Shown one piece after another: positions 20,554 through 58,945 of a stretch of 64,000 bases of DNA; within the stretch, counting starts at the first letter, position 1; each line of letters starts with the position of its first letter. Below the pieces are notes generated by a model. That model saw only the letters and a list, made by a program, of their open reading frames with translations. It did no database searches and was not told the origin of the DNA. This DNA is from Filosporella fistucella (lineage: Eukaryota > Ascomycota > Leotiomycetes > Helotiales): contig JAQJZZ010000001.1 of NCBI GenBank assembly GCA_030077755.1, forward strand, positions 1,922,001 to 1,986,000, written 5' to 3'. Both the position numbers and the translations under genes were made by a program.

Positions 20554-21392
20554 TTGACTGAAGTACTATAAAAGAGGAGTGAAATAGAGAGGACAAGCTG
20601 TACATAAGAAATGCAATTGTACATATGAGAATTAAAAGGCTCCGAAAACAGAAAGCTGAGATGTAAAACACACTGGGTGAGGATGGACGACTCTGTGACT
20701 ATTGAGATAGCTGGGTTGTCTTACTAAACGAACAGAAAGGCGAAATCTATCATTCCCGCCCTGCTTCATAAACTCTCGCTTCAACTTTGACGGCTTCGCC
20801 AGGACCCTATACGGAGATAGATTGGTTGAAGAAAGTTTGTGACAGTGGGGGAAAAGGATTCGACAAAACCAAGTACCTACCCAACCTCGTAAAGAGGTCG
20901 TGTTTGCCGAAGTGCTTGCAGATGATCGAAAAGCGGCACTGTGTACATTGTAAGGAGGCTGAGGAGGTGGAGAGAATATCGCGCAGGGAGTATTTCTGCT
21001 CCAGGGGCTATCATGGAGATAGATCACCTAGATCTTTGTGAGGATATAATACCAGATGCCTATCTAATGCTCCTTGAACTGAAAATCTGGATCTCTCATG
21101 TCGTAGACATTCCGTGACTCGCTGCCGCTTTACCAGGCCCATCGCGTGAATGGCGCGATCCGACGCGCCGAAAAAGTTCGTGTGTTGCCTGGCGATTGCA
21201 CAGTACCGCATTCGAGTGACACAGACACACCAAATCGAGACCAAGCCATCACCACCAGCACAACTTCAACGACTCGTCGCAATTCTCTTCCACCTTCAAA
21301 TCGACATCACTTTCTTGTTATGGTGTCGTAGTTAAGGAAATGGGTCTCGATGAAGGTTGAACGACCAGACAATAGCCCTCGAGCTCGCAGCC
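20554..21392. other. Intergenic, about 0.84 kb
   Basis: 3' flank of the SGNH gene and promoter of RIF1. A minus-strand frame at 20632-21027 is open but shows no family features; I do not call it. Confidence 0.45.
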
Positions 21393-24300
21393 ATGGTAGA
21401 TTCGCTGGCAATACCGACATTACCACCAGCTCTCCAAGAACGTCCTCCCACACCCCCACGACAGTATCGAAATAGCGAGCCAAAGTCTTCTGTCGTTGGG
21501 CGATTTCTGCACCAAGACCCAGGCTCTCGACGCTCCTCAGCTGCCTCCATACTCACCCCCGACTCCTCATCTGAATCACCAAACATATCTGGGTCTGGGC
21601 GGAAGAAGGTTGGCTGGTCAGATACGCCAGAGTATAAGGATCCCCCTGTGGTATCATTTGATGGAAAAGGGATCCTGAAGCACGAAGTTCAACCTCTCCC
21701 ACCGTCTGCGGAACGAAAACCAACAAAGTCAATACTGAAAGCTCATAATGGACCTTACGACCTTGACGGCAGTGGATTGAGTAGCATACCGAAGCTTTTA
21801 CCCCCTCACCACCACGCGACATTCGCTACAATGCTGGAATCAATCATACAGCAGTTGGCGGGGAAAGACAGGAGCTCAAAAATGGATGCGTATCTTATGC
21901 TATCGGATTCTCTGAAAGCTTCTGATAATGTGCCTGATTTGAAAGCTCTGAGGGTGAAGATGTCAATTCTGTGCTCACTGATTGAGCAAGATCTAATGCA
22001 GACATTGGAGAATGGGAAACCGGATTCCACTCTGATGGCGAGGGTGTTGACACTCTTTTCAACTTTCCTTGCCCGGTCAGCAATTGCCGAATCTTTACCA
22101 ACAGAATTCTGCGTTCATATTGTCGACCATGCTATCAAATTATTCGACCAAGGCTCCATGTCGAAGGAAGCAACGAAATTGTTCATGTTTGTCCTCGCGC
22201 AGCAGAACTTCTCCTCCAAGGTTATGACGTCCGACAGAATTGGGAAGCTTGTTACAGCACTATGCAATCTCGATGTGTATATCAAAGGCAAGAGCACGGC
22301 AATCGGACGTATCACTATCTATCGCACACTTCTTCGACAATCCAGATCTCCTATGCTACATCATACCGTCTGGGTGCCAGATTTGTTCTCTCAGATGCTC
22401 AGCAGTATCAAGGAAGTCCGGAGCGCAGCTATTTTGTTTGGGTTGGAAGCTTCTTTTTCTGTTGGAACGGAAACTAACGCTACTAAAGCCGTGTTGAATC
22501 TCTTCAGAGTCGAACACGCCGAAGGGGGCCGGTTCGCGGAATTTTACTCTGGAAAATTGATCTCAATGTCGAAGAACAAGGATCAAAGCTATGCCGTACC
22601 GCAAATCTGGAGTGTTATCATTCTATTCCTGCGAAGTAAACCTAAAATTCTGGAGCAGTGGACATATTTCAAGCTCTATGTTGAAGTCATACAGAAATGC
22701 TTCAATTCAGGTGACAATGTTACCAGGGTGGAAGCCAATTATGCATGGAACCGTTTCGTCTTTGCAATCCAACCCAACGAATCGACATCGAAGAGCATGA
22801 GGTCCCTTCTGTGCCAAGCTCTTATAGGTCAGTTGAGGCTACGGAAGTCTAATACAGGCCGGAAGGCAGTCATCAGTAGTATTTACAACTTGTTGTATTA
22901 CGCATTTCAGCCAAAAGCATCTTCTGCGCAGCTTGATTTGTACTGGGATGAGTACATCATTCCACTCTTCGGCCACTCAGTAGAAAGTGGATCTGGCACG
23001 AAAGCGGTTCCCAACCTGGAGTTGGCGAAGCAAGACACCTCTGAAGCCTGCCTCATTCTACAGACACTGTTTGATTCAAAAAGACATAGACCATGGAGTG
23101 AGACACGAGCAATGGACAATTTGCAACACAACGCTGTATCTGTCACAGAACTGCCTGCAATCGACTCGAAATGGCTACGCAAAAACTCCGCCCGGGCCTT
23201 CGCAGTTCTGGAACCACTATTAATGTCGCTATATTGGGATCTGAGGGAGGAGTCTCCAGTCCTACAACTTTGGAATACATACATCAAGGCCATATCGTCT
23301 CCCGCCATCCTGGAGATTAAGGTCCATATTGATGCTCTGTCCTCCCTGGCCACGTTATTTGGCACATTACACAAAGTGTGGAATCTGGGTCCGGAGGGCC
23401 TGCAGAAATCACAATTACACCCAACAGACGCCTCGGAAATGACAGTGTCTACAAGATTTTTGAAAAGTTTTGAGGCGCTTGTGCTCACCGCTATTGAAGG
23501 CCTCGATGGACAAATGATGGCTTTCACTGATAAGCTTCTCTCTATTTCGCATGATACTTTTATTCCTGTCCAAACGCCATCACACCAGCCAAGCAAAATG
23601 CGTGCGTCGACCCGATCTCCGTTGCATCATATGTTCCTTCTCCTACTTCAGCCGTCACCCCAACTCGAATATGATCAACAATTTGCCAAAATGACGCATC
23701 GCTTATTCTCACCATTTCTTCACGACAAGAGGAAGACAAATAACAAGTCAAAAATGGACTTTGTAAAAGAACTGGTTCAATGGCTCCCATCAGAGTCTAC
23801 TGAACCTTGCAAACTCATATGGCAAGTTCTTGCAGATTTTGCTGCCTTAGTTGTGGATCAGAGAAACCCGGAGGGTACTGGCTACGTTGATGAGCCTCTT
23901 GGAGGTTACTACCGGGAAATTGTCAGTATTTTAGAGATTGGCGTCTGCCTCTCTCCACAACGGCCGCTTCCAGGATGGAAGACTCTGTTCGAGACTTTGG
24001 TCAATTCCGCTACACTCGATGCTGGAGATGCTGGTAAAGCCATCGTCATCATCGAGCCTATTGCGAGAAGCTTTCTGCCGAGAACCACTGGCACTGAGAA
24101 GCCCCTGAATGGATTATCATACTTCAACGTACTTCTTGGAAAAACAACCTTTCCCCGCGACCGTCAAGCTCTTGATGCAGCCACCAAGCGTATGTGGGGT
24201 ACCAAGAATGCAGGGCAGAGAAACACCGGATTTGATCCATACGTTTATCTGTATGAGTACATTCAATTATCATTGGAGACTTCTTACGGGTCTTTTGATA

Positions 24301-27300
24301 AACAACGGGTGTTAGAATACGCAGACACGATTTCGGCGACAGCTAGTATTTTAGGTCGTTGTCCTTCGGAGATGGTCATGGGAGTGCTTACAAAAATCCA
24401 GTCAGGTATCGCGTGTTGGATTATTGACGGCGATGCAAAACTTCGTGGAGCCACCCCACTGTCTAAATCAGTAAGTTGAAATAGATTTATCTTTCTTGCA
24501 ATACCTAATAATAAACCTAGATTACCTCGCTATGGTCTGTGATATGTCAGCTCATCCCGCGACTACGGGATGGTTATTCACACACAAAAATATTAGCTGA
24601 TCTGGAAGTACTGATTTGTGCTGGTTTGGAAAGCAAGCATAAGTCGATTGTGAATGCTACAATCAGCATGTGGAATTCCACCTTCGGTTCTTGTCAGAGC
24701 GGTTTGGAGTATCCTGAGCGTGCCAAAGTTGCGTTTCTTAGGTTACGTCCTGTCGCCGATGTTCATCTGCCATTCTTCCCAGAGAGCCTCGAAGACGAAG
24801 TTTCTCTTGACCATCGACAACCTTCTGATTTTGTTGATAGTCAGGACGAATTGGGCAATCTCTTGATCCCAAAAGCCATATCTTTCTTCAAACCAGCTCC
24901 AGAGTCCACTCTGGAGCCTGTTTCATTTGAGAGGGTGCGGAAATCTACTCCCCAGGTAATAATCGAATTTGGGAAAGCTGGAGCTCGAAAGAGGTCCAGG
25001 GAATCCACTCCTGAAGTCGGAAGGAGGAAGTCTCGGAAGCGAGAAATTACCCCAACAATTCGACACGATGACTCCCAAGTGCAATTTGAGGCAATTCCAT
25101 CGTCCCCGATGGCCGACAGGGTTGTGGACTCTCAGCTTCTGACAGATAATCAGAAAGAGGTTGCTGAACGACAGCGTGCCGAGGCAGCCATGTTTCCTGA
25201 CCTTAAATCTAGCCCGAGAACCAGTGAGAGGTCTGCAAGAAAGTCCACGGCTGATCCTGATCTACCACTACACCGTTCGTCTTCAAGACTGCGTGATCAG
25301 ATTCCACGCGATACTAGGCAGACCACACCAACGTTACCTATTCCCAGTGACGACGATCATTTCGTCGCGTCTTCTCCTACTCCAACACGGTCCATTCGCG
25401 GCGACATAGAGAATCTCGATCCACCTTCGTCTCCCCCAGAAGATTCAAGGCGCGACCTAGAGCTGAATATTGACGGCGATATTTCATCATCCCCGCCGGA
25501 AAGCACTCCGGAACCAGGCGATGATCCCACCACTGATGCCCAAACATCGTTGAATTCAAATATCATTGAAGTTACCAACCATGCCCCATCGTCGTTCGTA
25601 CCACCTCTCCCTGAGCCACACCCTGAACCGCAATCATCTTTCTATCAATCTGTTGTGGAAGATGGGCAGACAGACTTGGTCGCCGCAGATCATGAAGCTG
25701 GATCCGAAATCAATCACGAAATCCGAAGGACAAATGAAGAAAATGTGTCAGTTACTCACCAGTCAATGGGCGAGCTCGGCAATGACACAACAATAACAAT
25801 CGATCCATCTGCGCAGCTTGACCCGTACACTCTTCTCCAGGACACACCATATTCCGACATACAATATGGACCATCTAGTCGAGAGTCTTCTCCCGCAGAC
25901 GATCCATCTGACCAACTCCGGGCTAGTCAATTAGAGCATGAGGAAATGCTGTCTCGTGCTGATTCGGAAGTCCATGTTGACGAAGTTGGGCAGAAACCGC
26001 TTGACCCCGAAAACGAGCCTAGGGGTGCACCCCTGGCAGGTCTCGAACCTATATATGACCCGCAACCCCCAGGAACTCCTGTTCGACTAATACAGAATCT
26101 CCACGAGGCCGAGCAATCGCCAAATACACCTGGCTTACAAGAGTTTCAAGATGCTATGTCAAGCCCTGCTTCATCTGATAAACCATTCGAAGACGCGGTT
26201 TCCTCCCCACGCCTCAATGTCCAGAAAGCCCAAGCAAAGCAGATTTCCTCGCCACTGAGCGAGATTGACGATTCCAGTATGTTGCGGATTATGGATGAGT
26301 ATGATCAAGAGCTTGTAGATGGTGCACACAATGTGTCCTTTGTTGAAGACAAAGAGAATCAGCCACACGAGACGCATCACTCTCCCGCAAGAAAATCATC
26401 TGCCAATCTTCCGTCATCTGACTTTGTGCCAGCAATTATCCCCAGATCTGCAATGCGGGATCATTTCTCTCCACAAACAGAAGTTCGTAAAGACAAAGAC
26501 ATCATTGGTATATCTAATGAGCCAAATACATCTTCTCATCCATCTCTTATTCCTGAGACCCCTGCTCCGAAGCAAAACGAACAGCTAGATATTGCGTACT
26601 ATGATAGCGATGGCGAAGAAGTTGATATGACTGAGACTATCGTTGTTGATGCCTCTATTCTCGAGCTTGAACAGCGTCGACGTACATTCAAAAGAAGCCC
26701 ACGCAAGCGTGTTGTGTCACAGGCGAGGAAGAGGAAATATCAAGATACCCGGGAGGATACAGCGGACACGAGTGAGATTCCTGACAGCCAGGATCCGGAT
26801 GCTCTTGACCATGGTATGATCAATCTCAACAAGAGCTTATGCATCAAACTGACAAAAGTTTCAGCGAGCGCAAGCAAGAGATCTCCGGCCCAGAAGAAGA
26901 GAAAGGGTCCAGGACGACCAAAGCGGCGATCAGCCATTGAAGAGACTCAAGTACCACAAGAATATGACGAAAACTACAGTTTCTTATCGGTGGACCTCGA
27001 TGCTTCGATTCCAGATTTGGAAATTAGCCCAAGCCCGAATTCATTTGCTACAGAAGAAGAGCTGGTCGGCTCCCAGAACCTTGCTCAAGTCCAAGAGCAG
27101 CAGTTTTCTCCACAAAAAGAATCGTTTCCAGCTACAGAGAACGCAGAGGGAACTTCTGACGAGAAAATTGGCGCCGTTCCGATTGCAGAGGAGGTTCTAC
27201 ATACAGATACCCTGCAGGTGCTTTCCCCAAGTGATGAACAGGCGGATTTTCCTCGCCCTGAGATTATTGAGGAAACAACACTTGATGGAGAAGAACCAAG

Positions 27301-29489: not shown

Positions 29490-29992
29490 GAGCTGAAAAG
29501 AGAGCGGAGAAGTGAGTCAGCTGCGCCGGGAGCTGATTGAAACAGAGACGATGATCACGACTGGCTGATGATGCTTATGGGTCAATTACAGCATACATGG
29601 ATGGAATACTGAATGCGGATTACGGAGGGTAGCAATGATAGGACTTTGGATTAGAAATTTGATGTGGCTCAGACTCAATAGAAAGATTCTTATTGTGCTG
29701 AACCTGGCCTCGAGTCATGCGTTTGTCGACGCGTGTATTGGAAGTCGTCAGAACAATGTCGTCAATCAGCTTGATCCACATTTCGCGTGCTTTATTTTCC
29801 ACGCTTCCATGCCGTATAATACATGTCATACCCCTCACTCCACATACGATCATAGCAATAGAATCATGTTCATGTAGAATTCTTGATGATCACATAAGTC
29901 TTAAATGGTTTTGCACTATCATTCGATTATTAAATCTTCAACCTCAGTCTCCATATCTCTTGTCATAGTAACCTCCTCCTTGGAACCGTTTC
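29490..29992. other. Convergent intergenic, about 0.5 kb
   Basis: Lies between the 3' ends of the epimerase (plus) and the MFS gene (minus). AT-rich; I see no gene. Confidence 0.5.
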
Positions 29993-31825
29993 CTAGATGA
30001 CATAGCGGAAGAAGACCTAGTGGCGCATGGAATTAGCAATTTGCTGCATGAAGGAAGATCTCCGAGAGAACTTACATTCTTTTTGTCAGTGACATTTTCA
30101 AATCCTTGAATTCTGCTTTCCTCCCTCATTGCCTCGATTTCTTCTTCGCTCTTACCCTCGAGGGCTCGGTCACGCTTCTTGTTTTCCATCTGATAGAGAA
30201 AACGCAGAGTCAAATTGAACACGATATTCAAAATAAAACCAATGAGCATAGCCACAATTCCGCCGTGGTAGGACGGAGCTTGCGCTGCTTTGAAGCATTG
30301 AGGGCCTAACAATGTCAGTCCTGACACGTTCCAGTCACACAAAGTTTACTTACCAACAATCTGACCCACACAATACATTACAAAGACCATGGCTGAGGCC
30401 ATACTCTTCTTCGTGGTACCTGCAACGTTTGTTGCCAGTAGACCAAGAAGGACCATGAAGCCGGTTGGATATCCAGCTAGTAGCCACACACCGACCAATC
30501 GGCCCCATTTATTCCCCGTATCCAGCTGATTGATCAAGACTGTTCCAATGATGGGTGGAATCATGGCAACCGATCCAACAATCAGTCTTGCATTTGGCAA
30601 CTTCGTTTGAGCATATCCACCAAGCAAGGTGAAGACTGCTTGAAGAAAGGAGAGCGGCATATTCATCAAGGTAGTTTGAAGTGAAGTGAAGCCAAATCCC
30701 TTGATAATGATACTTCCAAAGCTCAATCCTCCTGATGCAACAGCATTGACGAATGAGATCAAAGCCAGGAGTATAATCTTTGGATCGAGAAGGGCTTCAA
30801 TTGCTTGCTCCTTCACAAAAGTCTTGCTCTTGGTTCCTGTCTTATTCTCCACTACACGTTGAATAGCGACCACTCTTTCTTCCTCTGTCAACCATTTCGT
30901 AGTCGCTGGGTTGTCCGGTACAACTAGAATGAACAGGACTCCCCAGACAATAGTAAAAGCTCCTAAGATGATGAAAATCAATTTCCATGTGGCGATGCTT
31001 CCTTCGATATGTCCAATTCCGAAAGTGATCAGACCACCGATTGTGCCAAAGAAACCCAAAAAAGACACCCAGATTGCAGATCGTGATGCTTGTTCCTCTC
31101 TCGTCCACCAGATACCAGTAATGGCAACGAAGCCTGGTGAGATGGTAGCTTCAAAGACACCGAGCAAGAATCGAACGGTTGCGAGAGATGCGAAGGAGGA
31201 ACATGCAGCAGTTACCATAAGAATACTGGCCCAGAGGATAATATTGACTATATAGATCAGAGAACGCAACTTTGGCGGAGAAAAGGGAGCATACTTCCAA
31301 GGAATTTGGCAATAGGGAATCTTTGCAATAGAGCTACACCTGGATACTCGGCGAACATGTAACCAAAGTAGAAGATGGATCTGGACATTTATGAGCGGCT
31401 GGATTGGTGTTCGTTTCGAGGTACTCACGAAGCCCATGAATAGTCCTGCCCAACTAGATGATTATCCGCAATGATTCCGAATACACTCGAGTATCCCAAA
31501 GTGGTTTTATCCAGGAATTGCAAACCTTTTTAATTTGTTAGATCTTTCGACGCACTTTTAAGGATATTGAATACTAACCATAGGTAATGCACAGAAAGGG
31601 TAAGATGTACATATCAATCTTTCTCAGTACCCTCTTCGATATTTCTGCTTCGGCTGGCCCACTTGCTAGGGCTTGAGCAGCCAACTCTCCAGCTTCATCA
31701 TCTATATGGTGATCATTCTTCTGAAAGTCTTCGGCATCGTTTTCGTTCAGGACGGCGATCTTTTCGTTTGCCGAAGTATAATTTTCAGCATCGCCAGCTG
31801 TGGCTATCTCTTCTGGTGACCCCAT
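29993..31825 (-). CDS. MFS transporter, allantoate-permease (DAL5/ACS) family, six exons, 525 aa
   Basis: Exons 31825-31579, 31525-31429, 31380-31295, 31247-30354, 30305-30076, 30016-29993; introns 53, 48, 47, 48 and 59 nt. Every junction is in frame and the last exon supplies only 8 codons, ending FFRYVI as in DAL5 relatives (D-x-x-N-x-x-F-R-Y). The anion:cation symporter family imports allantoate, nicotinate, pantothenate, small dipeptides or similar organic anions by proton symport at the plasma membrane. Seen: an acidic N-terminal tail, the first helix IDMYILPFLCITYGLQFLDKTT, the motif TGIWWTREEQASRSAIW, WLTEEERVVAIQRV in the central loop and about 12 hydrophobic helices. The substrate cannot be deduced. 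It lies 2 kb from the triterpenoid cluster, but the family gives no reason to link it to product export. Confidence 0.9.
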
Positions 31826-32813: not shown

Positions 32814-33302
32814 CTATGCCAGGAAAAATCCCAGCGGTGCAACCAAGAAGAAAGCGATTCCGGGTATCAAGTGGTGCTTATATGCACCTTTCCTCCCATG
32901 CCAGAAAGTAGCAGCCGCATCTCCCCCAGCCACAAGTGCTGCCGAAAGCGTTACAACAGTACTCAACGCCTTCATTTCATTCATCCAAAGCAATGCCAAC
33001 ACTGAAACACCAAGTGCTGTTTCTCGTCCAGCAAAAGCAGTCATCCAGCCCACACCAGCTTCGAATTGACGACTTGGACTGAAGCTGGAGCTGCGAGGTT
33101 TGGTTTTCAGCCCATTGACCGATTCATTGTTACCTCGGATTGGAATGCCGAAGTTTGTGGCAAGCAGAACGGGATTAAAAATTGCGAAGATGCCCGTTGC
33201 TGTCATTGTGATACCGAGGAGACAGCATGCTGAGCGGAAAATGGGTAGGAAGATGTTGGAATGTGAGGTGATGAAGTCTTGGAAGGGGGAAATAGACGAC
33301 AT
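32814..33302 (-). CDS. Small four-helix membrane protein, DUF4267-like, 162 aa
   Basis: A single-exon frame starting MSSISPFQDF. Hydrophobic segments lie at about residues 18-45 (FRSACCLLGITMTATGIFAIF), 85-108 (GWMTAFAGRETALGVSVLALLW), 112-130 (ALSTVVTLSAALVAGGDAAATFWHG) and 142-162 (HLIPGIAFFLVAPLGFFLA). The pattern of FNPVLLATNFGIP then GRE-LGV then GDA and a final PG resembles small DUF4267 membrane proteins, which are widespread and uncharacterised. It sits 0.3 kb from the MITE and 0.6 kb from the P450 that starts the cluster. Nothing ties it functionally to either. Confidence 0.75.
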   Translation of the reverse strand: MSSISPFQDFITSHSNIFLPIFRSACCLLGITMTATGIFAIFNPVLLATNFGIPIRGNNESVNGLKTKPRSSSFSPSRQFEAGVGWMTAFAGRETALGVSVLALLWMNEMKALSTVVTLSAALVAGGDAAATFWHGRKGAYKHHLIPGIAFFLVAPLGFFLA

Positions 33303-33910
33303 TTTGAAAATTGGAGTATATGTTCGATATTTGTTTGCACTCAGGATGGATGGGGGATATCACCGTGATGAGACAATTCGGGGGGTTCTGATTCATTCAA
33401 TTTATCCAGCGATAGAAACACTCCGGCAGTGATTCTAGGTAACTTTGTGCTGCCCAGAAGGAGTTGTAAGGTGGCAAGTCATGTCGGATCTTACGACCAC
33501 TCGGCTTGCCTTCACGTAAATCCACTTTATTCCTACGCTGCGTATGTGGATACTCTGCATGCAGTGGAGACTGTCTTGACTGTGCCGCCTCACCTGCGGC
33601 ATTTAGATCAGACCAATGCATGCTTTAAATGCGGGTGGAGGGATCACTAAAGATTGACCGCCTGGCGTACTAAATTCCAGGGTCTGACCGAGCGTGCAGA
33701 AGTGCGGATTATCATCGTCGATACTTTTCGGACATGGGATTTTTAAATCTGCACCGAGGTGGGACATGGTGGATCCAGAAGGGGGAGGGGTAAATCTTTG
33801 CCAGTCTACCTGCTGCTTCACTTCGGTGTAGAAATTCCCCGCGGAAAGTGAAAATTTATCATTCATTTAAATCATAATATCTGAGGTAATGATAGTTGAG
33901 GATACTCTAT
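33303..33910. other. Intergenic, about 0.6 kb
   Basis: 5' flank of the DUF4267-like gene and 3' flank of the first P450. I see no gene. Confidence 0.5.
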
Positions 33911-35705
33911 TTATAAACTCTGCCCAATCTTCCTCCTCCGTACTCTAATAACAGCAGACATAGGAGGCAAAGCTGCGTCTCCAACAACTCCAGTCTGCGG
34001 CCGAGGACCATCATGCTCTATATCATAATGTATTGTTATATATGCCATCATAATTTTCAACAGCTGTACAGCGAACCATCTTCCAGGGCTGTCTCATTCA
34101 TCAGTAACTCCCTGGAAGTGTTTTGAAACTTGACCTACCATGCATGACGACCGTAACCAAATCCCAGATATGTAGAGGTTGGCTGTCCTGCACTCAAGTC
34201 ATCGAGATAAGATCGAGATTTTGAGGACACTGTCTTTTCAGTTTCCAAGTTATCTGCTTCCAATTTTGACTTCGCAGCACTTCTTGGCCGCTCGTCCTTC
34301 ATTTTCACAAACCTGAAAGGGTCGTACATTTGAGCGTTCGGATAGAATCTCTCGTCCATATGGAGGCCAAGCACAGGTATGCCCAACCAACCACCTTTCG
34401 GGATATGAGTTCCGTCTGGGAGGTTGAGCCCCTCAGTCCGGAGTACCTCTTTGGTCAAACCTTTAATCAGAATTGGATGATACCGCAGACTTTCACGAAT
34501 TGTACTGTCCAGAAGAGTCATTCCTTTGAATACTGCGCCATCATTCCAATCTCGATTGAGTTTAAGAGCATCCACCGCCTCCTCGCGCAGAGTTTCGTAT
34601 GCATCCATTTCGATAGGACAACAGATGACATCGAGCAGAAGATTCGAAGCTTGAATGATGGTGGAGGATAATGCTGCGAATCCCTGAAAATGTGAGATTT
34701 GAGTTGAGAACCAGATGCGGAGGCTTACTCACCATCAACATTATCCATTCAGCGAGCGTACTCGAGTCGGGTGTTCTTTGGGTCTTGCTCATTTTTGCAG
34801 ACACTTTCGCGGATTGCATGATGAAATCATAGTTGTTCTCGCCCGCTTTCATCTGGTCTTCCTTGTCCAAAGCTGTCAATTGTCTCTTCACCTCTGGCAC
34901 GAGAGCTTGTAAGGTCTTCCATCTATAGTAGCGAAGTGGCAGATTAAACAACGGTACCAGAAGTCCCTTCAAGACCCTTGGAAGCTCGCCAATGACAATT
35001 GTGCCCACTCCCATAGCAAGTACGTATTTTTGAAATGTAACGAGAAATCCTGGATCTAGCCCTAAAGGCAGGCCGAAGAACACTCGACTCATGGCGGGTA
35101 CAATGATCTCTTGCATACTGCTGTATACATTGATCGATTTCCACTCGTCCTCATTTGCGCCAAATACTTCATCGGTTTTGCGTTTGATTTCCTCGTACAT
35201 TGGAGCTTGTATCATATCCAATTTCCTATTCAGACTGTCTCCAGCAACACGACCTAGAAAAAATGACGTAGAGTTGAACTCAACTCCTTTGTGAAGATAT
35301 CGTACTGCATGACGCTCCTTTCGTATTTCGGCACTGGACATGACAGAATCCGGCTGTTCAGCAAACCACTTCACCATTTCTGGAGGAAGCATGACTTCTT
35401 GTTGGAAACTCGGCTCATGTATTAGGAAGGGTCTCCCATTCTTGGAGTACTATGTAGACATAAGCTTGGGGTATTTTGTTATATCTCTCGCAATTGACTA
35501 CCTGGTTATAGCCCTCGGAAAGAGTGGTTACTCCATTTCTCAGCTGCCTGATTCCAGCTCTCGTCGACTTGAATAACTCATTCCTTACACCAACGACCGG
35601 AATTGATTTGGGAAAATTTATGGGACGATTGTATGACTGAAAAGCGACGAGATAAACGAACAGTAACAAAAACGGTAACACAAGCAAGAGACCATAGATC
35701 CCCAT
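33911..35705 (-). CDS. Cytochrome P450 monooxygenase (cluster P450-1), four exons, 547 aa
   Basis: Exons 35705-35502, 35449-34733, 34683-34139, 34088-33911; introns 52, 49 and 50 nt, all joins in frame. An N-terminal membrane anchor (MGIYGLLLVLPFLLLFVYLVAF) is followed by the proline hinge PINFPKSIPVVG. The K-helix ExxR is in STIRESLRYHP, the PERF-type segment is YDPFRF, and the haem loop FGYGRHACPGRW is completed only by joining exons 3 and 4; the Cys is the haem thiolate. The first residues after the hinge and the PGRWFAVQLLKIMMAY helix resemble fungal terpenoid-oxidising P450s. It is transcribed divergently from the cyclase-glycosyltransferase and shares its promoter region, so oxidation of the triterpene scaffold is the likely role. 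The position oxidised cannot be predicted. Confidence 0.92.
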
Positions 35706-36707: not shown

Positions 36708-37087
36708 TGTACGAATAGAATGACCATGCAGAAGTAAGCCCAAACACTTCATTTTTCAACTTGGTACCGCCGTTGGACGTGGAACATCCATGTATAGTAC
36801 ATACTTGGGAAGGATGAATGCTCTACAAGTTGTATTCAAACTCGGACCTGTCTCCTTTCTTGGTCTTAACTCAGCCTTGCCGACTCGTCGCCCACCGATC
36901 ATCCCTGAGTCTTTGACTAAGGACATTACTATACGGATTAATCTAGTCGGTATAATTTTCTTCAGCCTTGCTCTTGAAGTGCATGTGATTGTTGAGACCT
37001 CAACGTAGTGAAAATATTCCACCAAGGCTGACCAAACGCCTTCTTACACCTTGCGACTCAATTAAAAGATCCCAATAGCCATCTCCT

Positions 37088-40000
37088 ATGACTAAGGAAC
37101 ACAAGATGCCACATGCAGAGGATCTTCAAGACCATGCTCGCATTGCCTTGGACAAAGCTATTCAATTTTCTTTCGACAATCAGAAGGAGGATGGCCACTG
37201 GGTTGCAGAGGTTTCCGCCGACGTTACGTTCACATCCGAATATGTTATGTTCAAATATGCAATGGGTCTGGATTTGAAGCAGGATGGAGAAGATCTCAAG
37301 AGGTGGTTGCTACAGGATCAGAAGGAGGATGGTTCTTGGGCACTTGCACCCGACTTACCAGGCAATAACTCGACGACTACCGAAGCATACCTCGCCCTAA
37401 AGATACTGGGTGTGCAATCAAACCACCCTCAGATGCTAAAGACACAAAGTTTCATGAAGAGCCATGGAGGGGTTGAGAAAGTTCGATTCTTCACTCGATT
37501 TTTCCTCTCAACTTTTGGACTCTTCCCATACTCGGCGATACCACAAATACCCGCAGAGCTGATCTTAATGCCTGCATCGTCACCGCTCAATATTTATACT
37601 CTCTCATCATGGGCTCGAAGCACACTGATACCCATACTCATATTCAGACATCACGAACCAATATACTCCCTTCCAAATGGTCGTAGTGCAAGTAATTCCT
37701 TCCTCGACGAGATCTGGTGCAATCCGGCAGACAAAAATGTCCCTTATGCCCCACCGATGTCGAAAATGTTCTGGGAGAAAGAGTACATAGAGCTTGGTTT
37801 CACGGCACTGGATAAATTTCTCGGGCAGTTGAATTGGCTCAAAAGTTCCCCTCTTCGAGATATGTCAAGAAGAAAATGTGTTAGCTGGCTCTTGGAGCAT
37901 CAAGAGAAAGATGGTGACTGGGCTGGATTCTTTCCACCTATGCATGGGTCTATCTGGGCACTGATCCTCGAAGGCTTTCCACTCGAAGGCAAGGTCATTC
38001 GTCTAGGGTTGGAAGCAATGGAGCGTTTGACAATTTGTGATGAGCGTGGAAAACGAGTTGCACCAACTGTTTCGCCTGTTTGGGACACTGCGTTGATGAT
38101 GAATGCACTTTGCGATGCAGGGCTGGCATCTGATCCTCGTGTCACGAAAGCTGTAAATTGGGTCAAGGATCGACAGCTATTGAATGATCATGGCGACTGG
38201 CGAGTTTATAGCAAGAATCAGATTCCAGGAGGATGGTCTTTCGAATACGCAAATACCTTCTATCCTGATGTCGACGATACTGCGGTGGTCGTTATGTCGC
38301 TTCTCAAGCATGACCCATACTCCATCAATACCAGTTGCGTACTGAATGCCACTGAGTGGATGCTGGGCATGCAAAATCCAGATGGCGGCTGGGGAGCATT
38401 TGACACCAAAAACGACAAACTATGGTTGCACAAGATTCCATTTAGTGACATGGATAGCCTTTGTGATCCAAGCTCAGCTGATATTACTGGAAGGCTGATT
38501 GAATGCTTCGGAATGCTTCTTACCCACAGAAAAGGATCTTTGGAAGTCGGCCTTCGCCAGAGGCTCATGCGATCATCTCAGAGAGGGTTACTCTGGCTGG
38601 AGGAAGACCAGCATTCTTGTGGAGGATGGTGGGGGCGATGGGGAAATAACTACAATTATGGCACTGGCAATGTGATGAGAGGTCTAGTATACTTTTCCGA
38701 AGACAATTTCCGTGTTCGTATCATGGTAGATAAGGCTACACGTTGGTTTGAAAAATGTCAAAATCCTGACGGTGGGTGGGGTGAGCATTTGAGGTCGTAC
38801 AACGAGCCAGAATGGATTGGAAAGGGGCCAAGCACTTCCGCTCAAACTGCATGGGCACTTCTTTCACTACAACCCTATCGACCACAGTCTGATCCTTTTA
38901 TCGAGAGAGGAATCAGGTGGCTTGTTGGCAATCAATCTGTAGATTCGGAAAACGGATCTTCATGGCCAATCGATGTGTACACTGCGACAGGGTTTCCCAA
39001 TGTTCTATATTTGGGTTACCCATATTACCACCACTTCTTCTCAATCATGGCATTGAAAAAGTATATTGACGGAAAAGTTCAGCCAAGATACGATGAGATA
39101 TCTCTTCCTGTCCAAATTCCTGCCGCGATGAATCAACCAAATATTCTTGTGATGGTAATTGGAAGTCGTGGAGACATCCAACCATTTCTGAGCATTTCTA
39201 GGACACTGAAAGAAAAGTATGGATATCGCATCAGAATTGCTACACATTCATTCCATCAAAACTTTGTCGAGGATCAAGGAGTGGAGTTCTTTGCAACGGG
39301 TGGAGATCCAGAAGCATTCGCACGAGCGTTCGAAGATAATCCTAGTATCCTACAATCTGCAATTCGAGGGGAGTATCGGATTCTGTATCGGTCTTTCAAT
39401 TCCATGCTGCAAAGATTTTGGGAAGCAAGCATGGTGAATGACATCAGTCACTCAGAGAAAAAAAACATCCGCCCTTTCGTCGCGGACAGTATTGTCTCCA
39501 GCTATTCAACTCTGACACATATTCATTGTGCCGAAAACCTTCAAGTACCTTTGGTTCTAGCTTCACTACAGCCATTATTAGCAACAACTGAGTTCCCAAA
39601 TGTTTTGACAATGTCAAAGCCCAGATTTACAACGGGTCGCAAGCTGAATGCTATGACGTCCTTCTTTTTGGATCTTATGTAAGTATCCCCCCGAAAAAGC
39701 GGCTCCTTAACTATGAATATTAACTGAGTTTAGAAATTGGTGTGTTTTTGGTCCGTTCTTGAACCATCTTCGAGCTCAGGTGTACGGAATGGCCGCGGCC
39801 TCCTGGACATGGGCAACGGTCGAGCTCCCAAAAATGAAGATCCCTCATATATGTCTATGGTCACCACACTTTGTCGCCAAACCAAGCGATTGGGACTCGA
39901 GCGTCACTATCGCGGGCTATGCATTTCCAGGGGACGTTGCTTATTCGGCACCAGAAGACCTGAAACAGTTTCTTACGTCGGAATGTAACTTGCTTCTCTT

Positions 40001-40979
40001 CTCTTTCGGTTCCGCCACGATGAGAAACCCGAACCGATTGATGAAAATGATTTTTGAGGCCACTGCTAGATTGGGTGTCAAAGCAATCATCTGCCATGGC
40101 TCCACGGATATCGAAAGCAGTCTGAAGCTTCCAGAACACATTTACATGGCCGAATCAATTCCACATTCTTGGATTCTCCCTCAAGTTCATGGTTTTGTTC
40201 ATCATGGTGGAGCTGGGCATACTGCCATTGGATTAAAATATGGCATCCCCCAACTCATCATGCCATTCTACCTGGATCAGAACTTTTGGGCAGCCAAAAT
40301 TGAACAACTTCAGCTTGGTCCTGTACCATTGGAACATCAAACTGTTACCATCGAGCAACTCCATTGTTCCCTTCAAGATCTGTTGTCAAGTAAATACAGA
40401 GAAAATTGCAGGTCGATGGCACACAAAGTTTCTAATGCTAGAGATGGTGCAGAGGTAGCTGCAGAGATGATTTCTCGTGTCCAAGGTTACGTCCACAATG
40501 CACCAAAATGTTGCATCATCCCATCTCTGAGAGCTCAATGGAAGCACAAATCCGCTGGTCTCCTGCTATCAGGTGCTGCTGCAGCTTGCCTTGTTTCGAA
40601 TGAAGTCTTGTATTGGTCAGATCTAGAGCTAAAAGGCATCTATACCTGGCCAGATCAAAAATCTATCGCAACCACTAGCATTATGGGACTTCTGGATCAA
40701 TTGACCTCCTTTTTGTCGAAATTGTTCTCCTTGATGTTGTGGGTGCTGTCGCTTTTCACCAATCCTCTAGGTGAAAACGCGCGCAACGAAAAGAATAGCG
40801 AACTCATCTGCGACCCTCTGAGGAAAGCCAAGATGGAGCAAGGAGAGTATGATTTGAGATGGATCAGTCACGAGCTTGGGCTAAACGTAAGCGAAAAGAT
40901 TGTGTACAATTGGAATGCTTTGAGCACTGATGCATTTCATCGTAAGATGGGATTGCATGTTCAGGTTGAAGGAGTCTGA
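37088..40979 (+). CDS. Triterpene cyclase-glycosyltransferase fusion (enfumafungin-synthase type), two exons, 1,278 aa
   Basis: Exons 37088-39678 and 39734-40979 (55-nt intron GTAAGT...TTTAG). Residues 1 to about 660 are a squalene-hopene-cyclase-type class II cyclase: QW-type repeats (DGSWALAPDLPG, DGDWAGFFPP, QNPDGGWGAFD, QNPDGGWGEHL) and the protonating motif DVDDTA at about 394-399 (the DxDDTA form, not the DCTAE of lanosterol synthases). After a linker of about 20 residues comes a GT-B fold of the GT28/sterol 3-glucosyltransferase type: NILVMVIGSRGDIQPFL at about 682 and HHGGAGHTAIGLKYGIPQLI...FYLDQNFW near 1010. The domain junction lies inside one uninterrupted exon, so the fusion is not a gene-prediction artefact. 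Known for this architecture: EfuA makes the glycosylated fernane-type scaffold of enfumafungin. Inferred: it cyclises squalene or its epoxide and glycosylates the product. The C-terminal 120 residues include a hydrophobic segment. Confidence 0.93.
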
Positions 40980-41212: not shown

Positions 41213-42498
41213 TTACAAAGCTGTCTTAAAACTGCGGATGAGATTGAATGGCAAAATCGGTTTACCCTCATCTCGTTGCATGGTCGGAAAAGTCCAAACT
41301 GGTGTTGTCCAGATAAGCCAAGCTAGCACCCAAACATATCCCATACATCTTCCTGTCTTACAAAGTACCTGAGATGTTCCACCAAGTCTTACAGCGGTAG
41401 CAGTGATTGCATCCTCCAACATAATTCCTAGCGTTTGCATGCAGAAGAACTGCATTGCTCCGCTCTGACTGAGAGACAGACCTTGAGTCATATCCGAAAA
41501 CATATGGAAAATTCCTGAAACTGCAAAAGTACAGAAAATAAACAGATATCTGCCAATCATCCCACCTTTTCGTGCTCTTAGAGTGGCGTAAGTGATGAAA
41601 TAAGCAATACTTCCACAGCCACGACGTATCAACTGGTGGTAGAAAGTCCTATGGATAATTTAGATGCATTTCAAAAGATATCAGGACTGAAATACCCCCA
41701 AAAACGCCGAAGTGAATAGGAGTCCTTCACAGACCCAAATACCGGCGGCCAAGCCTGAACAGGAGTAATGCCGGATGCAATTGCAACCATGGCAAATGAG
41801 GAGTAGACTGCTTGTATTATGATGTATTGTACAGCCCAGTACCCAATGATACTGAAAATTCTCGTGTAGAACTCCTCTCTGGTAATCTCCGTGAGGCGAG
41901 CGAAGAATGAAATTCGGCCTTGAGAAAATATGACTGCATTGTCACTTTTCGGGGCAAGGCTGATGCCGTCCAAGATACAGATACAAATGGAGATTTTCAC
42001 TGCTGAGTCCCTAAGAAATTGCCCTTTGGTTGGTACGTAATTGTTGTCGCTCGATCTGAATGGTGGAATGTTCTTGATGGGCCATTTGGTTGCAGGAAAG
42101 CGACTTTGAAGACTGATGTCAGCACCGAAGGTGAGTTTGTCTACAGTGTTGTCGAAAAAACTAGAGTGCTGTTCTTTGATACGTTTCTCTGGATTATACA
42201 AAGGAACTGGATTCAATCCACCAAGTGATGATGTTGGTCCACCTTCCTTGTAAGTCCATTTGTGTAGAAGGACAGTGTCGACGTATAGAATGTTCACATA
42301 CACTCCTGCTGCTCCAACGAACGCACGAGTGATGCTATTGTGTATCAATCTAACAAAGGGTAACTCCAAGTAGGTACAGAAAGTGACAAGAGGGAGACAT
42401 CCCAGACGCAAGACTGAATCCCGTGACGTGAAGCCCAGCACGATGATCATGAGACCAAGCTGAAGTCCAACGAGGCTGACAGATGACTGGAAAGCCAT
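41213..42498 (-). CDS. Membrane-bound O-acyltransferase, wax-synthase-like, two exons, 412 aa
   Basis: Exons 42498-41696 and 41648-41213; a 47-nt intron (GTATTT...CATAG) restores W-G-T-F-Y-H-Q. The first exon is open further upstream but with stops and no ATG before 42498 (MAFQSSVSL, context GACATGG). The family pattern is clear: about eight hydrophobic segments, AWPPVFGSVKDSYSLRRFWG, FYHQLIRR, and the putative catalytic His in SGIFHMFSDM. Fungal relatives transfer acetyl groups from acetyl-CoA to hydroxyls of terpenoids (for example in meroterpenoid and trichothecene pathways). It is convergent with the cyclase-glycosyltransferase (233 bp between stop codons) and divergent from P450-2. Acetylation of a ring or sugar hydroxyl is inferred, matching the acetoxy group of enfumafungin. 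Confidence 0.88.
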
Positions 42499-43912: not shown

Positions 43913-45711
43913 ATGATGGCTGGACAAATCTCTGGGATCCTCGGTGTATTGAGCTTGCAATCATTGACTCTGCTCGTCCTTTCTGTTGCAAGTCTTTTTT
44001 TGCTCACCTGGTGCATTACATCCTGGACTGCACATCGTGCATTCGCCCTTTCCAAGGCGACTGCGCCAGGTCTGAAAAGGCCACCAACTCTTCCATATGC
44101 TGTTCCATTTCTTGGACATGTCATTGAATTTATGAGAGACGGAAATGGCTTCATGTCAAGAACGGCGTAAGTTATCCTTACTCCCCTACTTATGGCAATC
44201 ACTCAATAAAGAATCAGGCAATACTTGGATAGAAACATTCCTGTGCGGATCATCCTGCCAATCTTCTCTAATTATGTTGTCTCAGGTCCTGAGAATGTCC
44301 TGGCATACTTTCGAGAATCTCACAATCTATCTACAACCACTCGAAGTGTTATTGTCATGAAAAATGCTTTCGGCTGTCCAGGTCACTTGGTTCACCAATT
44401 TGAGCCCAGAGTCATTCCTCTGGGAACAAAGCTGGAAGATAACATTGAACATCAGATTCTCCGTGCTGTCAACTCAGGTCTTTCAGGATCACATCTCGAT
44501 GGACTTTCTTCCCGTTTCCAAGAAAATATGGCAGCCAAAATCAGGACAGACCAATCAGACGAGCTGTTTGATAACGAGTGGAAAGCACTTCCTGACATTA
44601 ACGGTTTTGTCGAGAATCGGGTATTTGAAGCTGCCGTGGCGTCTATGTTTGGAACATTTATGGTTTCATTGAATCCTACGCTTGCTGAAGATTTCTGGAA
44701 CTTCAATAGATATATTGGGGCTTTGTTCATGGGGCTTCCATCATTTCTAAATCCAAAAGCAATCAAGGCAAGAGAGAAGATGGTTGACAATATCAAGCGT
44801 TGGTTGAGATTCACAGCAGAGAATTGCCCTGTAGAGAGCTTGGGAGACGTCGACTGGGAGCCGTACTATGGGAGTAAATTTACTCGTGAACGCCAAGTTC
44901 TGTTAACTAAGCGGGGAATTGTTGATGAAACTGCCAGAGCCGCTGAAAACTTTGCTTTCTTATGGGCGTAAGTACTCACCTTCATGATCCACATTATTAA
45001 GCTGACACAAACTCCAGTACAAATTCTAATTCAGTCCCAGCTGCAACATGGTTCCTGATAGAATGTCTCCATGATCCCAGTCTGAAACAGCGAGTTCTTG
45101 ACTGTATCCCAGCCTGCATCGACGAAGCATCTTCTTTATCAGAACGACCACCAAAATTCGACATCGTAAAGCTTTGTGATGACCCTCTACTATCTTCAGT
45201 CTATGCGGAAACTCTACGTCTTCGAACAGCAGTTTTGGTAGTCCGTCAACCAACCTCAGACGATTTTTCTTTTCGAGGCTGGCATATCAAGAAGGATGAA
45301 GTTCTCAGCCTCTCTACCCGTACTGAACAAATGAATGAAGATATCTGGAACTCGAAACACCGCCCACTTGAAGAATTCTACTCTGATCGCTTCATCATTG
45401 ACCCCAAAGAGCCCAATAGTGGCCCCCTCAGAAATCAGAAAGTGAAGAGCAAAGATGGTAAACCTTACTTCGCTATGGACGGCTTGCGTGGATCATGGGT
45501 TCCTTATGGAGGCGGTAATCATCTCTGCCCTGGAAGACACTTCGCCAAAAGAGAGATTATCACTGCTACTGTTATGTTTTTAAGTGCTTATGAGATGGAA
45601 ATGGTCGACGAAGGGAAGGGTAAGCCTGAGGTGGACATGAAATGTTTTGGTTTTGGAACCATGCCACCCAACAGGGCTATTCCGTTCCGAATCAAGAGAA
45701 GGGAGACATGA
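43913..45711 (+). CDS. Cytochrome P450 (cluster P450-2), three exons, 565 aa
   Basis: Exons 43913-44166, 44218-44967, 45018-45711; introns 51 and 50 nt, both joins in frame. The N-terminal anchor (SLTLLVLSVASLFLLTWCITSW) is followed by RPPTLPYAVPFLGHVIEF. ExxR is in AETLRLRTAV; the haem loop is PYGGGNHLCPGRHFAKREI. The G-G-G-x-H-x-C-P-G-R form and the overall length resemble CYP7/CYP8-like fungal P450s, a group that includes sterol- and triterpenoid-oxidising enzymes, rather than the P450-1 type. The central I-helix region (VPAATWFLIECLHDP) lacks the classical AGxxT motif, as in CYP8-type enzymes. It pairs head-to-head with the acyltransferase and tail-to-tail with P450-3. Scaffold oxidation is inferred; the reaction could be atypical. 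Confidence 0.92.
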
Positions 45712-46080: not shown

Positions 46081-47901
46081 CTATTTGTCATCCTCACTTC
46101 TTCGCTTTATTCGCACCTTAACATCGCTAGCTGGATGAGGAGCACCAGCTTCCATCCCCTTCTTCACATTCCAGGTCCCATCTGCATTCTTAGGACCCAG
46201 ATACTCAATATCCCAAAAAGCGACCATCGCGGCCACAAAAGTCAATACTTCCCTCTCCGCAAATAACCGCCCTTTACACATACTGTACCCGCCTCCAAAT
46301 GCATAAAGGTGTCTGGGCATTTCAGCTCTCTCTCTCTTTTCGTCTCGGGGGTCTTGGATAACGAATCGTCGGGAACTGAAGACCTTGGGCTGATCCCATA
46401 ATCTGGGATCTGTGTGTGCTGCACCATTATGTATACATACGACATTGCCAGCTTTTAGGTTGTAGGTGCGAGGTACAGCTCCTGTTCCACGTAGGAGGGC
46501 TGCATCGGCAGGCGATTCTGTGATATTGAAGTCTTCTTGGATGTACTTCTGTTCGACGCCTACAATATCTAAGCGCATGGTTTCAAGCCACGTAGACTTC
46601 GTCAACGGACATTGGCGAGAAAGAGCTGTGTGATTAAAAGATACCTCTCCGCTGGATAGAATCTTGACATGAGGTGCGACTTCTTGACGAATGGCAGCAA
46701 GGAGGGTGGGCGACGAGTAAGTATGGACGATAGTCCAAAAGGTAATAATATTAGCGTTCTGCCCAAGGTTAGATGAGATTGCCAGAGTATGATTTAATAC
46801 AAACCGTATGAAGACCCCAAAGAAGACTTAGCAGATTCGCAATGGCTGCTTTCTGGACTTCCTCCCCGCCACTTCTCCAGGTTCTATGTTGCATCTTTGC
46901 AAGCTCACTAACATCATTCATATCCTCCCAGCCCGGCACAGGCTCTCCTTTCTCATCAATAGCTTGGAAAGCACGAAACCAAGTTTCGATTGCTTTCTTT
47001 GACCGATTCAGGGCCGCCCGAGCATTTCTAATCTTGGAATTGAATGGCGGCATTCCAGTAAGAAGAAGCGGGAACTGAGAGTCAAAGGTGAAAACATCAT
47101 CCATAAGTTCCGGACATTGTTCAATAAGTGCTTTTCCAAACATTGCTGGAGTTGAAGCGCAGTATGCCCAACGAGTAACGAGACGAAAAAGATCTGCTTC
47201 AACTTCTTCGGCTTTTTCTTCAATCATACTGAGAGCACTTCTTTTCCAGGGATGCAAATTCGGACTGCCTCCTGCAACTGATGCGAACGAGAGGATAGAT
47301 TTGCCTACAGCCGCTGCGGTGCGGTCAGATGCATCCATCATGGCAGCTTCAGTCATCAAGAGGTTCAGATTCGATGAGATGTGGGAATAAAGATCAGGGA
47401 CAGTGGCTGTGGTACCCTCATCGCCGAAGCCATGTTTTGCAAGCCAATGTATCAATGGTTTATTGGAAAGAACTGTTGCCCGTTGTGCAAAGACTTGCTT
47501 AGAAAGGGATGGCATCAAAATCTGATAATGCTTATATCCAACAAGTCTGATTGCAAACGCTCCATCTCTGGTGTTGTCACTACGGACCCATTAGCAAACA
47601 ATTGACAATATATAATGACCTGTACGAACCGTGCATTGGTAAAGAGCCCTGCATTGTTTAAGATGTATGAAAATCCGTGTCCAATCCATGGGAACATATG
47701 AGGTAGCATTGGCGGCTCCTTGGGAGCATCTTGCTTCTGTTCTCTCACATACCTTGCTTCTGTCCAGAGTAGATAAAACAGAGCAAATGCTAATGTTACC
47801 ACAACTAATGAGAGTAACTGGTGGGCTTGAAATAGGTACCATAGATACCCAAGCATCACACCCCCCAATTTCTGTGCCATTGAGGTATCGAAAGAGCGCA
47901 T
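46081..47901 (-). CDS. Cytochrome P450 (cluster P450-3), three exons, 574 aa
   Basis: Exons 47901-47630, 47579-46805, 46758-46081. Intron 2 (46 nt) is clear. Intron 1 (50 nt, 47580-47629) uses a weak donor GTTCGT; it is the only choice I found that restores the frame into GAFAIRLVGYKHYQIL, and a CTAAT branch-point-like site lies near its end. An N-terminal anchor (LLSLVVVTLAFALFYLLW) precedes PPMLPHMFPWIGHGFSYIL. ExxR is in LETMRLDI; the haem loop is FGGGYSMCKGRLFAERE. In F-x-x-G-x-R-x-C-x-G the usual basic residue is Ser here and Pro after Cys is Lys. It is CYP7/CYP8-like, as is P450-2, but clearly distinct. ATG 47880 is an alternative start. Divergent from the oxygenase gene at 48846. Confidence 0.88.
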
Positions 47902-48845: not shown

Positions 48846-49805
48846 ATGGAAGCTTCAGCCACCACACAAAATCCTCTGAACTTTCAAGGGGACGTTGAGA
48901 CAGTTTTCAATTACCATAAGGATGTAAGTCCTGAGCAAGAAAGAGCCATCTATGGTACAGCTCAATTCTGGCGGAAACCCTATGAACAACGAAAGAGTAT
49001 AGTTCATGATATCAGAGGCAATGAGAAGGACTTCAAACTTGATGTCCATGGCTTTGAATACCACAAGATTCCCTCCTCGCTCGACGACTTTTCAGATCCG
49101 GAGAAGATAAAGAGTATCTACTACCCGGAGGTAGAGAGGTATCTCAAGGAAATGTAAGTTCCCGCTCTTCAAATATTGAGCACAACTGACCGCAAAAGTA
49201 CTGGCGCTTCTCGAATCATCTTCATCATACACGTCAACAGGACCCACTCTATCAAAGAAGTAGCAGCTAAAATTGCGGATGTTCCAGATGACTCTGAGAA
49301 ACTTCTCGGTCTGGTTCCCCCCCTTCAACACGTCCACGTTGATCAGTCGTACGATGGCATAAACAATATGATTGATTACTGCGTTCCAGCAGAAGAAGCA
49401 GATGGTCTGAAGAAAGTCAGGCATTCAATCATCAATGTATGGAGGCCAATACGCACAGTCACGCGCGATCCACTTGCTCTTTCCGATGCTCGATCCGTGC
49501 CGGAGGAAGATCTGGTCCATGTCACAACACATTTGGCAAAGGGAAGGACCAACATGACCTGGGGAGTACTTCCGCCAGATGTCGACGAGAAAACGGGAAG
49601 GCAGGAAAAACATAAATGGTATTGGTGTAGTCAAATGACGCCCGATGAGGTATTCCTGTTCAAGATACTGGATAGCAAGCTTGATGGGCGAGCGAGAAGA
49701 GATCCGCATTCTGCGTTCCACATTGACGGTACAGAGGGCGAACCAACCAGAGAAAGCATCGAGATGCGATGTATGGTATTCTGGGAAGCTGAACCAAAGG
49801 AGTAG
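48846..49805 (+). CDS. CmcJ/AsaB-type putative non-haem iron oxygenase or desaturase, two exons, 304 aa
   Basis: Exons 48846-49153 and 49199-49805; the 45-nt intron joins to give KEITGASRIIF. The protein follows the fungal family variously annotated as 7-alpha-cephem-methoxylase-related (CmcJ), GA4 desaturase-like or AsaB hydroxylase/desaturase. Seen: ITGASRIIF, QHVHVDQSYDG (H149-x-D151, candidate iron ligands), IINVWRPIRTVTRDPLALSDA, HKWYWCSQMTPDEVFLFKILDS, DPHSAFHID (candidate third ligand H273) and TRESIEMRCMVF (Arg288, candidate 2-oxoglutarate contact). Length (about 300 aa) fits. The usual FDHTIRR after RIIF is IIHVNRTH here. It shares a promoter region with P450-3, so it is probably part of the pathway as a hydroxylase or desaturase; that role is inferred. 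Confidence 0.83.
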
Positions 49806-58895: not shown

Positions 58896-58945
58896 CCTTC
58901 ACCTCTTCATGCTCTAGTGTGCGCAAGAGAGATAGTTGAAAGCTG

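Follow-up and report, generated by a model that had tools for sequence, protein, structure and literature searches.

A probable enfumafungin-type gene cluster around a cyclase-glycosyltransferase fusion in the helotialean fungus Filosporella fistucella

Introduction

The cyclase-glycosyltransferase (TC-GT) architecture was reportedly published in 2018 by Kuhnert et al. The efu cluster of Hormonema carpetanum, responsible for enfumafungin, the compound behind the antifungal drug ibrexafungerp, encodes the TC-GT EfuA, the P450s EfuB, EfuG and EfuH2, the acetyltransferase EfuH1 and the Fe/2-oxoglutarate oxygenase EfuI (PMC12667498). A second fusion, FsoA, was worked out by heterologous expression and belongs to the fso cluster of Humicola fuscoatra, which makes fuscoatroside. 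The C2-hydroxylase of these pathways is FsoD or EfuH2, the E-ring-cleaving P450 is FsoE or EfuG, and acetylation at C2 must come before glucosylation by the GT domain (PMC12667498). In Hypoxylon rubiginosum, a fernane-type cluster has a core in common with efu, consisting of the fusion, two P450s and the acetyltransferase, to which an O-methyltransferase and FAD-dependent enzymes are added (Stud Mycol 2021, PMC8403587). The polytolypin cyclase PolA, which gives motiol, performs a fernane-type cyclisation of 2,3-oxidosqualene, as is proposed below for the present enzyme; its product is not glycosylated (PMC9476466), and PolA probably lacks a GT domain.

A first-pass annotation of a 64,000-nucleotide stretch of Filosporella fistucella DNA (the window, in whose positions all coordinates are given) had pointed out such a fusion and had named its architecture as already known from EfuA, which the precedents above bear out. 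The fusion type is known and not rare, and the window holds a further example of it, not a new kind of system. What is new here is the tailoring set, made up of an MBOAT acyltransferase, three P450s and an oxygenase of the CmcJ/NvfI/EfuI family. No helotialean member of the fusion family was found described in the literature searched. We are fairly confident of the overall reading, namely a biosynthetic cluster of the enfumafungin type that follows the pathway proposed below.

Structure of the fusion gene and integrity of its domains

The fusion gene (37088..40979, forward strand) consisted of two exons (37088-39678 and 39734-40979) and encoded a protein of 1278 aa, from the ATG at 37088 to the stop codon at 40979. 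The stop-to-stop frame 37079-39682, with 867 open codons, was joined to the partner frame 39717-40979 by a GT..AG intron of 55 nt with a GTAAGT donor (39679..39733, forward strand), which was the sole intron in the model, lay within the GT domain and split codon 864. One exon had been described earlier as running without interruption from the cyclase into the GT sequence; the junction of the two domains did lie inside exon 1, but the gene is made of two exons and not one. Five Pfam families matched the protein over their cut-offs: SQHop_cyclase_N at residues 22-319 (1.8e-92), SQHop_cyclase_C at 328-659 (1.1e-105), Glyco_transf_28 at 686-833 (9e-9), UDPGT at 936-1091 (1e-8) and EryCIII-like_C at 975-1110 (2.7e-16). 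The fusion is therefore real, being a single model with both domains, in which a squalene-hopene-type cyclase (about residues 22-660) was followed by a linker and by a sterol-type glycosyltransferase from about residue 685 on. The DxDD motif of the cyclase was present as DVDD at residue 394, exactly where the first-pass annotation had put it, while the start of the GT domain, given there as about residue 682, was found slightly further on, with NILVMVIGSRGD beginning at residue 685 and GSRGD at 692.

Among the best 120 of 1019 homologues, 21 proteins of 1257-1424 aa aligned with both halves of the fusion, which excludes chance. The junction between the cyclase end and the GT start measured 40-52 residues in 20 of these 21, namely the full-length homologues in which both junction marks matched, and 41 residues in the window. 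Both marks stood 38-52 residues apart in 65 of the 120 listed homologues. Since strict patterns define the marks, the remaining 55, among which is the full-length P0003, presumably include truncated, stand-alone and unmatched proteins. Forty-five of the 85 GT-bearing homologues listed ended at GT position 180-187, the point that corresponds to the end of exon 1 in the window, as would be expected of ORF models truncated at a conserved intron.

Among solved proteins, the first half came closest to a squalene-hopene cyclase (412 bits, whereas lanosterol synthase scored 116) and the second half to a sterol 3-beta-glucosyltransferase (4.5e-40); judged by this similarity to solved proteins, the GT domain appears to be of the sterol GT lineage. 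Where all 21 other full-length fusions had the same residue, the window departed at one of 158 columns in the cyclase domain and at none of 50 in the GT domain, so that neither domain looks decayed. The possibility of a catalytically dead cyclase, raised earlier as the finding that would speak against the fusion, is thus not what the alignment suggests, with DVDD kept and a single invariant column changed. A decayed GT domain was likewise considered and rejected on the unaltered 50 columns. The end branch of the window was long in the GT tree (0.51, compared with 0.094 in the cyclase tree), and its identity to the Oculimacula protein was 85.3% in the cyclase but 61.0% in the GT domain. This was not taken as decay because the pair P0003/P0004 showed a similar contrast (83.2% and 59.7%).

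In the bacterial squalene-hopene cyclase, His451 supports the catalytic aspartate; its place was counted on the alignment with squalene-hopene cyclase. The equivalent residue was Arg in the window and in 20 of the 21 other full-length fusions, and Asn in that of Apiospora marii. Outside the fusion clade, Arg was found in six of eight cyclases and His in two, and the residue therefore does not set the fusions apart. An Arg at this place would suit an epoxide substrate, and 2,3-oxidosqualene is indeed the substrate reported in the literature (PMC12667498), but the residue proves nothing.

Distribution and descent of the fusion family

The homologue search was restricted to proteins whose length was between 0.55 and 1.75 times that of the query and ranked them by whole-protein score, which favours fusions over stand-alone cyclases. 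GT similarity (E <= 1e-5) was found in 85 of the 120 listed homologues, weakly in eight of them (5e-14 to 1.4e-8), a count that should not be read as the proportion among cyclases in general, since the search favours proteins near the query length. Going by organism names, the listed homologues presumably belong to Helotiales, Teloschistales lichens, Xylariales, Diaporthales, Aspergillus and others. The closest among the matches listed were the proteins of Oculimacula yallundae (P0001, 74% identity) and Rhynchosporium secalis (P0002, 72%), with 99% of the length aligned in both cases. The best 120 of the 1019 homologues did not include EfuA. The first-pass annotation had called the architecture otherwise rare; this did not hold up against the 85 GT-bearing homologues, and in a review such fusions are said to be "not rare" (PMC9476466).

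Separate trees of the two domains, as had been proposed earlier, were built from the window and 37 hand-picked members of the 120 listed matches for the cyclase, and from the window and 21 full-length members of the 85 GT-bearing matches for the GT domain; the latter set also served for counting invariant residues. P0065, in which SHC, GT and MFS domains stand in one model, was left out. The window grouped with Oculimacula yallundae and Rhynchosporium secalis with support of 100/100 in both trees, the latter two being its sister group, and this trio formed a separate branch in the cyclase tree. The full-length fusions fell into the same three groups in both trees. One contained Trapelia, Cytospora, Xylariaceae sp. 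FL1651, Chaetomidium and Apiospora; another contained Diaporthe ilicicola, Hypoxylon texense, Paramyrothecium and P0012; and the window trio was placed with Aspergillus ellipticus, Endocarpon and the Teloschistales with P0003. The order within groups differed or was unresolved in places, and the roots are midpoints. Three matching groups would be expected if the domains had fused once, long ago, and had since descended together. In the cyclase tree, 30 rows (the fusions and their kin, including the window) were split from eight other cyclases with 100/100, a value to be read with the midpoint root, a long-branch warning (P0097) at that split and the position of EfuA outside the tree. The window cyclase thus appears to be part of the fused lineage and distinct from the other SHC-like cyclases of fungi. 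Two proteins inside the fusion clade, P0076 and P0086, were without GT similarity, through either loss of the domain or truncated gene models.

In the genome (45.8 Mb, 19 contigs), SQHop_cyclase_C had two matches, the fusion and a weaker one on contig C11 that is presumably lanosterol synthase. A comparative genomics study of Rhynchosporium mentions one terpene cyclase gene, and the word squalene is absent from the available part of its text (PMC5118889).

Gene content of the cluster

Five further genes accompanied the fusion. P450 A (33911..35705, reverse strand; 547 aa, four exons) carried the heme site FGYGRHACPGR across an intron. P450 B (43913..45711, forward strand; 565 aa, three exons) was modelled with an uncertain acceptor for intron 1, and P450 C (46081..47856, reverse strand; 559 aa, three exons) with an uncertain first intron that has a GTTCGT donor. 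P450s A, B and C matched Pfam over the cut-off with 91.5, 63.9 and 50.6 bits, respectively. The nearest solved proteins were cholesterol 7-alpha-monooxygenase, sterol 12-alpha-hydroxylase and prostacyclin synthase for P450 B, and sterol 12-alpha-hydroxylase, prostacyclin synthase and cholesterol 7-alpha-monooxygenase for P450 C; these matches, like those of P450 A, were weak and assign no step. The MBOAT_2 acyltransferase (41213..42498, reverse strand; 412 aa, two exons) matched over the Pfam cut-off with 85.1 bits (4e-24), and the Fe(II)/2-oxoglutarate oxygenase (48846..49805, forward strand; exons 48846-49153 and 49199-49805) had 304 aa. The genes formed three divergent pairs, P450 A with the fusion, MBOAT with P450 B, and P450 C with the oxygenase. 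The three divergent spacers held no common word of 9 to 12 nucleotides, and one 8-mer was common to them, where 2.2 were expected. Neither a regulator gene nor a glucose oxidase was recognised among the window frames scanned. A small DUF4267 protein (32817..33359, reverse strand) adjoined P450 A. The left flank held a Rif1 gene and pieces of an MFS transporter (29947..31461, reverse strand), incomplete as modelled and probably outside the cluster, and the right flank an M20 peptidase-like frame.

The tailoring set, left open in the first-pass annotation, can now be partly described: by class it matches the efu enzymes named in the literature (PMC12667498), to which further efu genes such as efuJ are to be added. 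Like the window, the efu cluster combines a cyclase-GT fusion with three P450s, an acetyltransferase and a Fe/2-oxoglutarate oxygenase, matched by class, although the efu host is probably of another fungal class than F. fistucella. The fso cluster also has the fusion, three P450s and the acetyltransferase as counterparts by class, but its description includes the glucose oxidase gene FsoC and, in the available text, mentions no Fe/2-oxoglutarate oxygenase (PMC12667498), whereas the window has one.

The association of the acyltransferase with the fusion was found in other fungi. For 16 of 32 MBOAT matches, the longest contig was of identical size to that of a listed GT-bearing cyclase match, which on megabase contigs signifies the same contig and not the same neighbourhood. 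Neighbouring locus tags for MBOAT and fusion were seen in Oculimacula (VTL71DRAFT_9167/9168), where the MBOAT gene carries the next tag to the fusion, and in Polycauliona and Wetmoreana (Q9168_002633/002632 and Q9181_001889/001888), and the tags were two apart in Hypoxylon texense (Hte_010510/010512). From this co-occurrence, the fusion and the acyltransferase look like an old core, which fits the published order of acetylation before glucosylation (PMC12667498). By class, the MBOAT enzyme would be the counterpart of the acetyltransferases FsoF and EfuH1, with acetylation itself predicted.

The oxygenase scored 216.7 bits against NCBIfam NF041278 (CmcJ_NvfI_EfuI; cut-off 80) and had no Pfam match. 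It aligned with NvfI and another solved 2-oxoglutarate dioxygenase, and the metal-site pattern H149-x-D and H273 was in place, as was R293. The family is large, with 16 distinct loci over the cut-off in the genome, the present one included. No relative above 44% identity was found among the 120 listed of 311 matches, and EfuI was not among these 120. None of the 119 listed matches that could be compared (P0198 came without a contig) lay on a contig of the same size as that of a listed cyclase match; the contigs of Oculimacula and Rhynchosporium held no homologue of the window oxygenase among the 120 listed.

Proposed pathway and alternative readings

The match to the efu enzyme classes (PMC12667498) leads to the reading of an acetylated, glucosylated and E-ring-opened fernane; substrate, reaction order and product class are carried over from the published FsoA and EfuA work (PMC12667498). 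From 2,3-oxidosqualene, the N-terminal domain of the fusion would form a fernane-type alcohol, either fernenol or isomotiol by analogy with EfuA and FsoA. A P450 would then hydroxylate C2, and the MBOAT enzyme would acetylate the C2 hydroxyl. Glucose would next be placed on the 3-hydroxyl by the C-terminal domain of the fusion, another P450 would open ring E, and the third P450 and/or the EfuI-family oxygenase would carry out further oxidation, perhaps to the A-ring hemiacetal of enfumafungin. Enzyme class is the sole guide in assigning P450s to steps and a role to the oxygenase, and both assignments are guesses. The product would on the best reading be a 2-acetoxy, 3-O-glucosyl fernane-type triterpenoid, probably E-ring-opened and possibly with enfumafungin-like A-ring oxidation. 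The glycosylated triterpenoid suggested by the first-pass annotation is consistent with an EfuA-type fusion in such a cluster. Because hydroxylation and acetylation come between cyclisation and glucosylation, the two fused domains would act on non-consecutive steps.

Other readings of the locus were weighed against this one. Met681 sits just ahead of the GT domain, and from the DNA alone an internal start would be possible, with two transcripts, separately translated domains and a merely apparent fusion. This is very improbable, since Met681 was found in one of 20 other fusions compared (Oculimacula), the junction is open and its marks keep their spacing in the 65 listed homologues, and the fused gene structure of EfuA was confirmed by cDNA (PMC9476466). 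A cyclase with a different skeleton, giving a new glycosylated triterpenoid other than a fernane, is unlikely: no close relative (the cyclase is 85% identical to that of Oculimacula) has a product known to us and the window trio branches separately in the cyclase tree, but the characterised fusions EfuA and FsoA and the polytolypin cyclase PolA yield the isomeric alcohols fernenol, isomotiol and motiol, and the window carries a gene from the enzyme class responsible for C2 acetylation in that pathway. Only slightly less unlikely is a silent or non-functional cluster. A precedent of a kind is found in efu, as in Aspergillus oryzae the fernenol yield of EfuA was low and no glucoside was formed, and EfmA had no detectable product (PMC12667498); against it, all six genes have complete-looking models and family matches, and the fusion retains the residues invariant in its family.

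A weightier alternative, to which we give somewhat less than an even chance, is that the core makes a fuscoatroside-like compound (2-acetoxy, 3-O-glucosyl, with ring E opened and no A-ring hemiacetal) beside an unrelated oxygenase. The fuscoatroside steps are ascribed to FsoA, FsoD, FsoF and FsoE, and the available text names no such oxygenase for fso (PMC12667498). Among the listed matches, the lack of contigs in common with cyclases and the identities of at most 44% indicate that the oxygenase may be a bystander, and its family is numerous in the genome. On the other hand, the gene begins 990 bp away from P450 C, with which it is divergently paired, and the 15 other loci in 45.8 Mb would bring about 0.7% of random points within 10 kb of one, although such genes tend to cluster. 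The enfumafungin hemiacetal is, moreover, made by EfuI (PMC12667498), which going by the family name is of the same family. The oxygenase is a likely member of the cluster, and the enfumafungin-type reading retains it as a candidate. It is doubtful that a helotialean lineage added a CmcJ/NvfI/EfuI-family oxygenase to the fusion-acyltransferase core independently of Hormonema, which would give a new A-ring-oxidised congener of enfumafungin.

Native EfuA and EfmA perform badly or not at all in A. oryzae (PMC12667498), and the present cluster, which looks intact and comes from another lineage, provides a substitute fusion enzyme together with its tailoring set. It also adds an example to the question of why two enzymes whose steps are not consecutive remain fused.

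Two further ideas were examined and rejected. A second glucan synthase carried by the cluster for self-resistance was discarded, as the genome search gave one glucan synthase match, on another contig. A foreign origin was not indicated by base composition, which in 4-kb steps over the cluster was 0.447-0.466, inside the range of 0.446-0.479 for the window.

Glucan synthase and cluster flanks

The genome search revealed a single glucan synthase match in the host, located on contig C3 (1156629-1159100), and no additional copy was found within or close to the cluster in this genome. With no extra copy there, a host that does make the product would have to owe any self-resistance to something else. 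Loci of the CmcJ/NvfI/EfuI oxygenase family were many in the host genome (16 above the cut-off). To its left the cluster has a housekeeping side, marked by a Rif1 homologue with a Rif1_N match (window 21354-24476), and a HET-domain gene (heterokaryon incompatibility) was located at 57159-58898, approximately 7 kb past the oxygenase that likely belongs to the cluster.

Domain variation among related cyclases

Three homologues of the fusion protein, P0105 from Aspergillus coremiiformis, P0095 from A. bombycis and P0120 from A. flavus, were squalene-hopene-type cyclases of 1127-1230 aa. Their C-terminal parts resembled the Transferase family PF02458 in profile matches, above the cut-off for P0105 and under it for P0095 and P0120; these proteins apparently represent a different natural fusion, of a cyclase with an acyltransferase. 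The Xylaria cyclases P0067, P0069-P0071, P0078 and P0083 (912-979 aa) showed only weak and short glycosyltransferase similarity, reflecting either glycosyltransferase domains in decay or wrong gene models.
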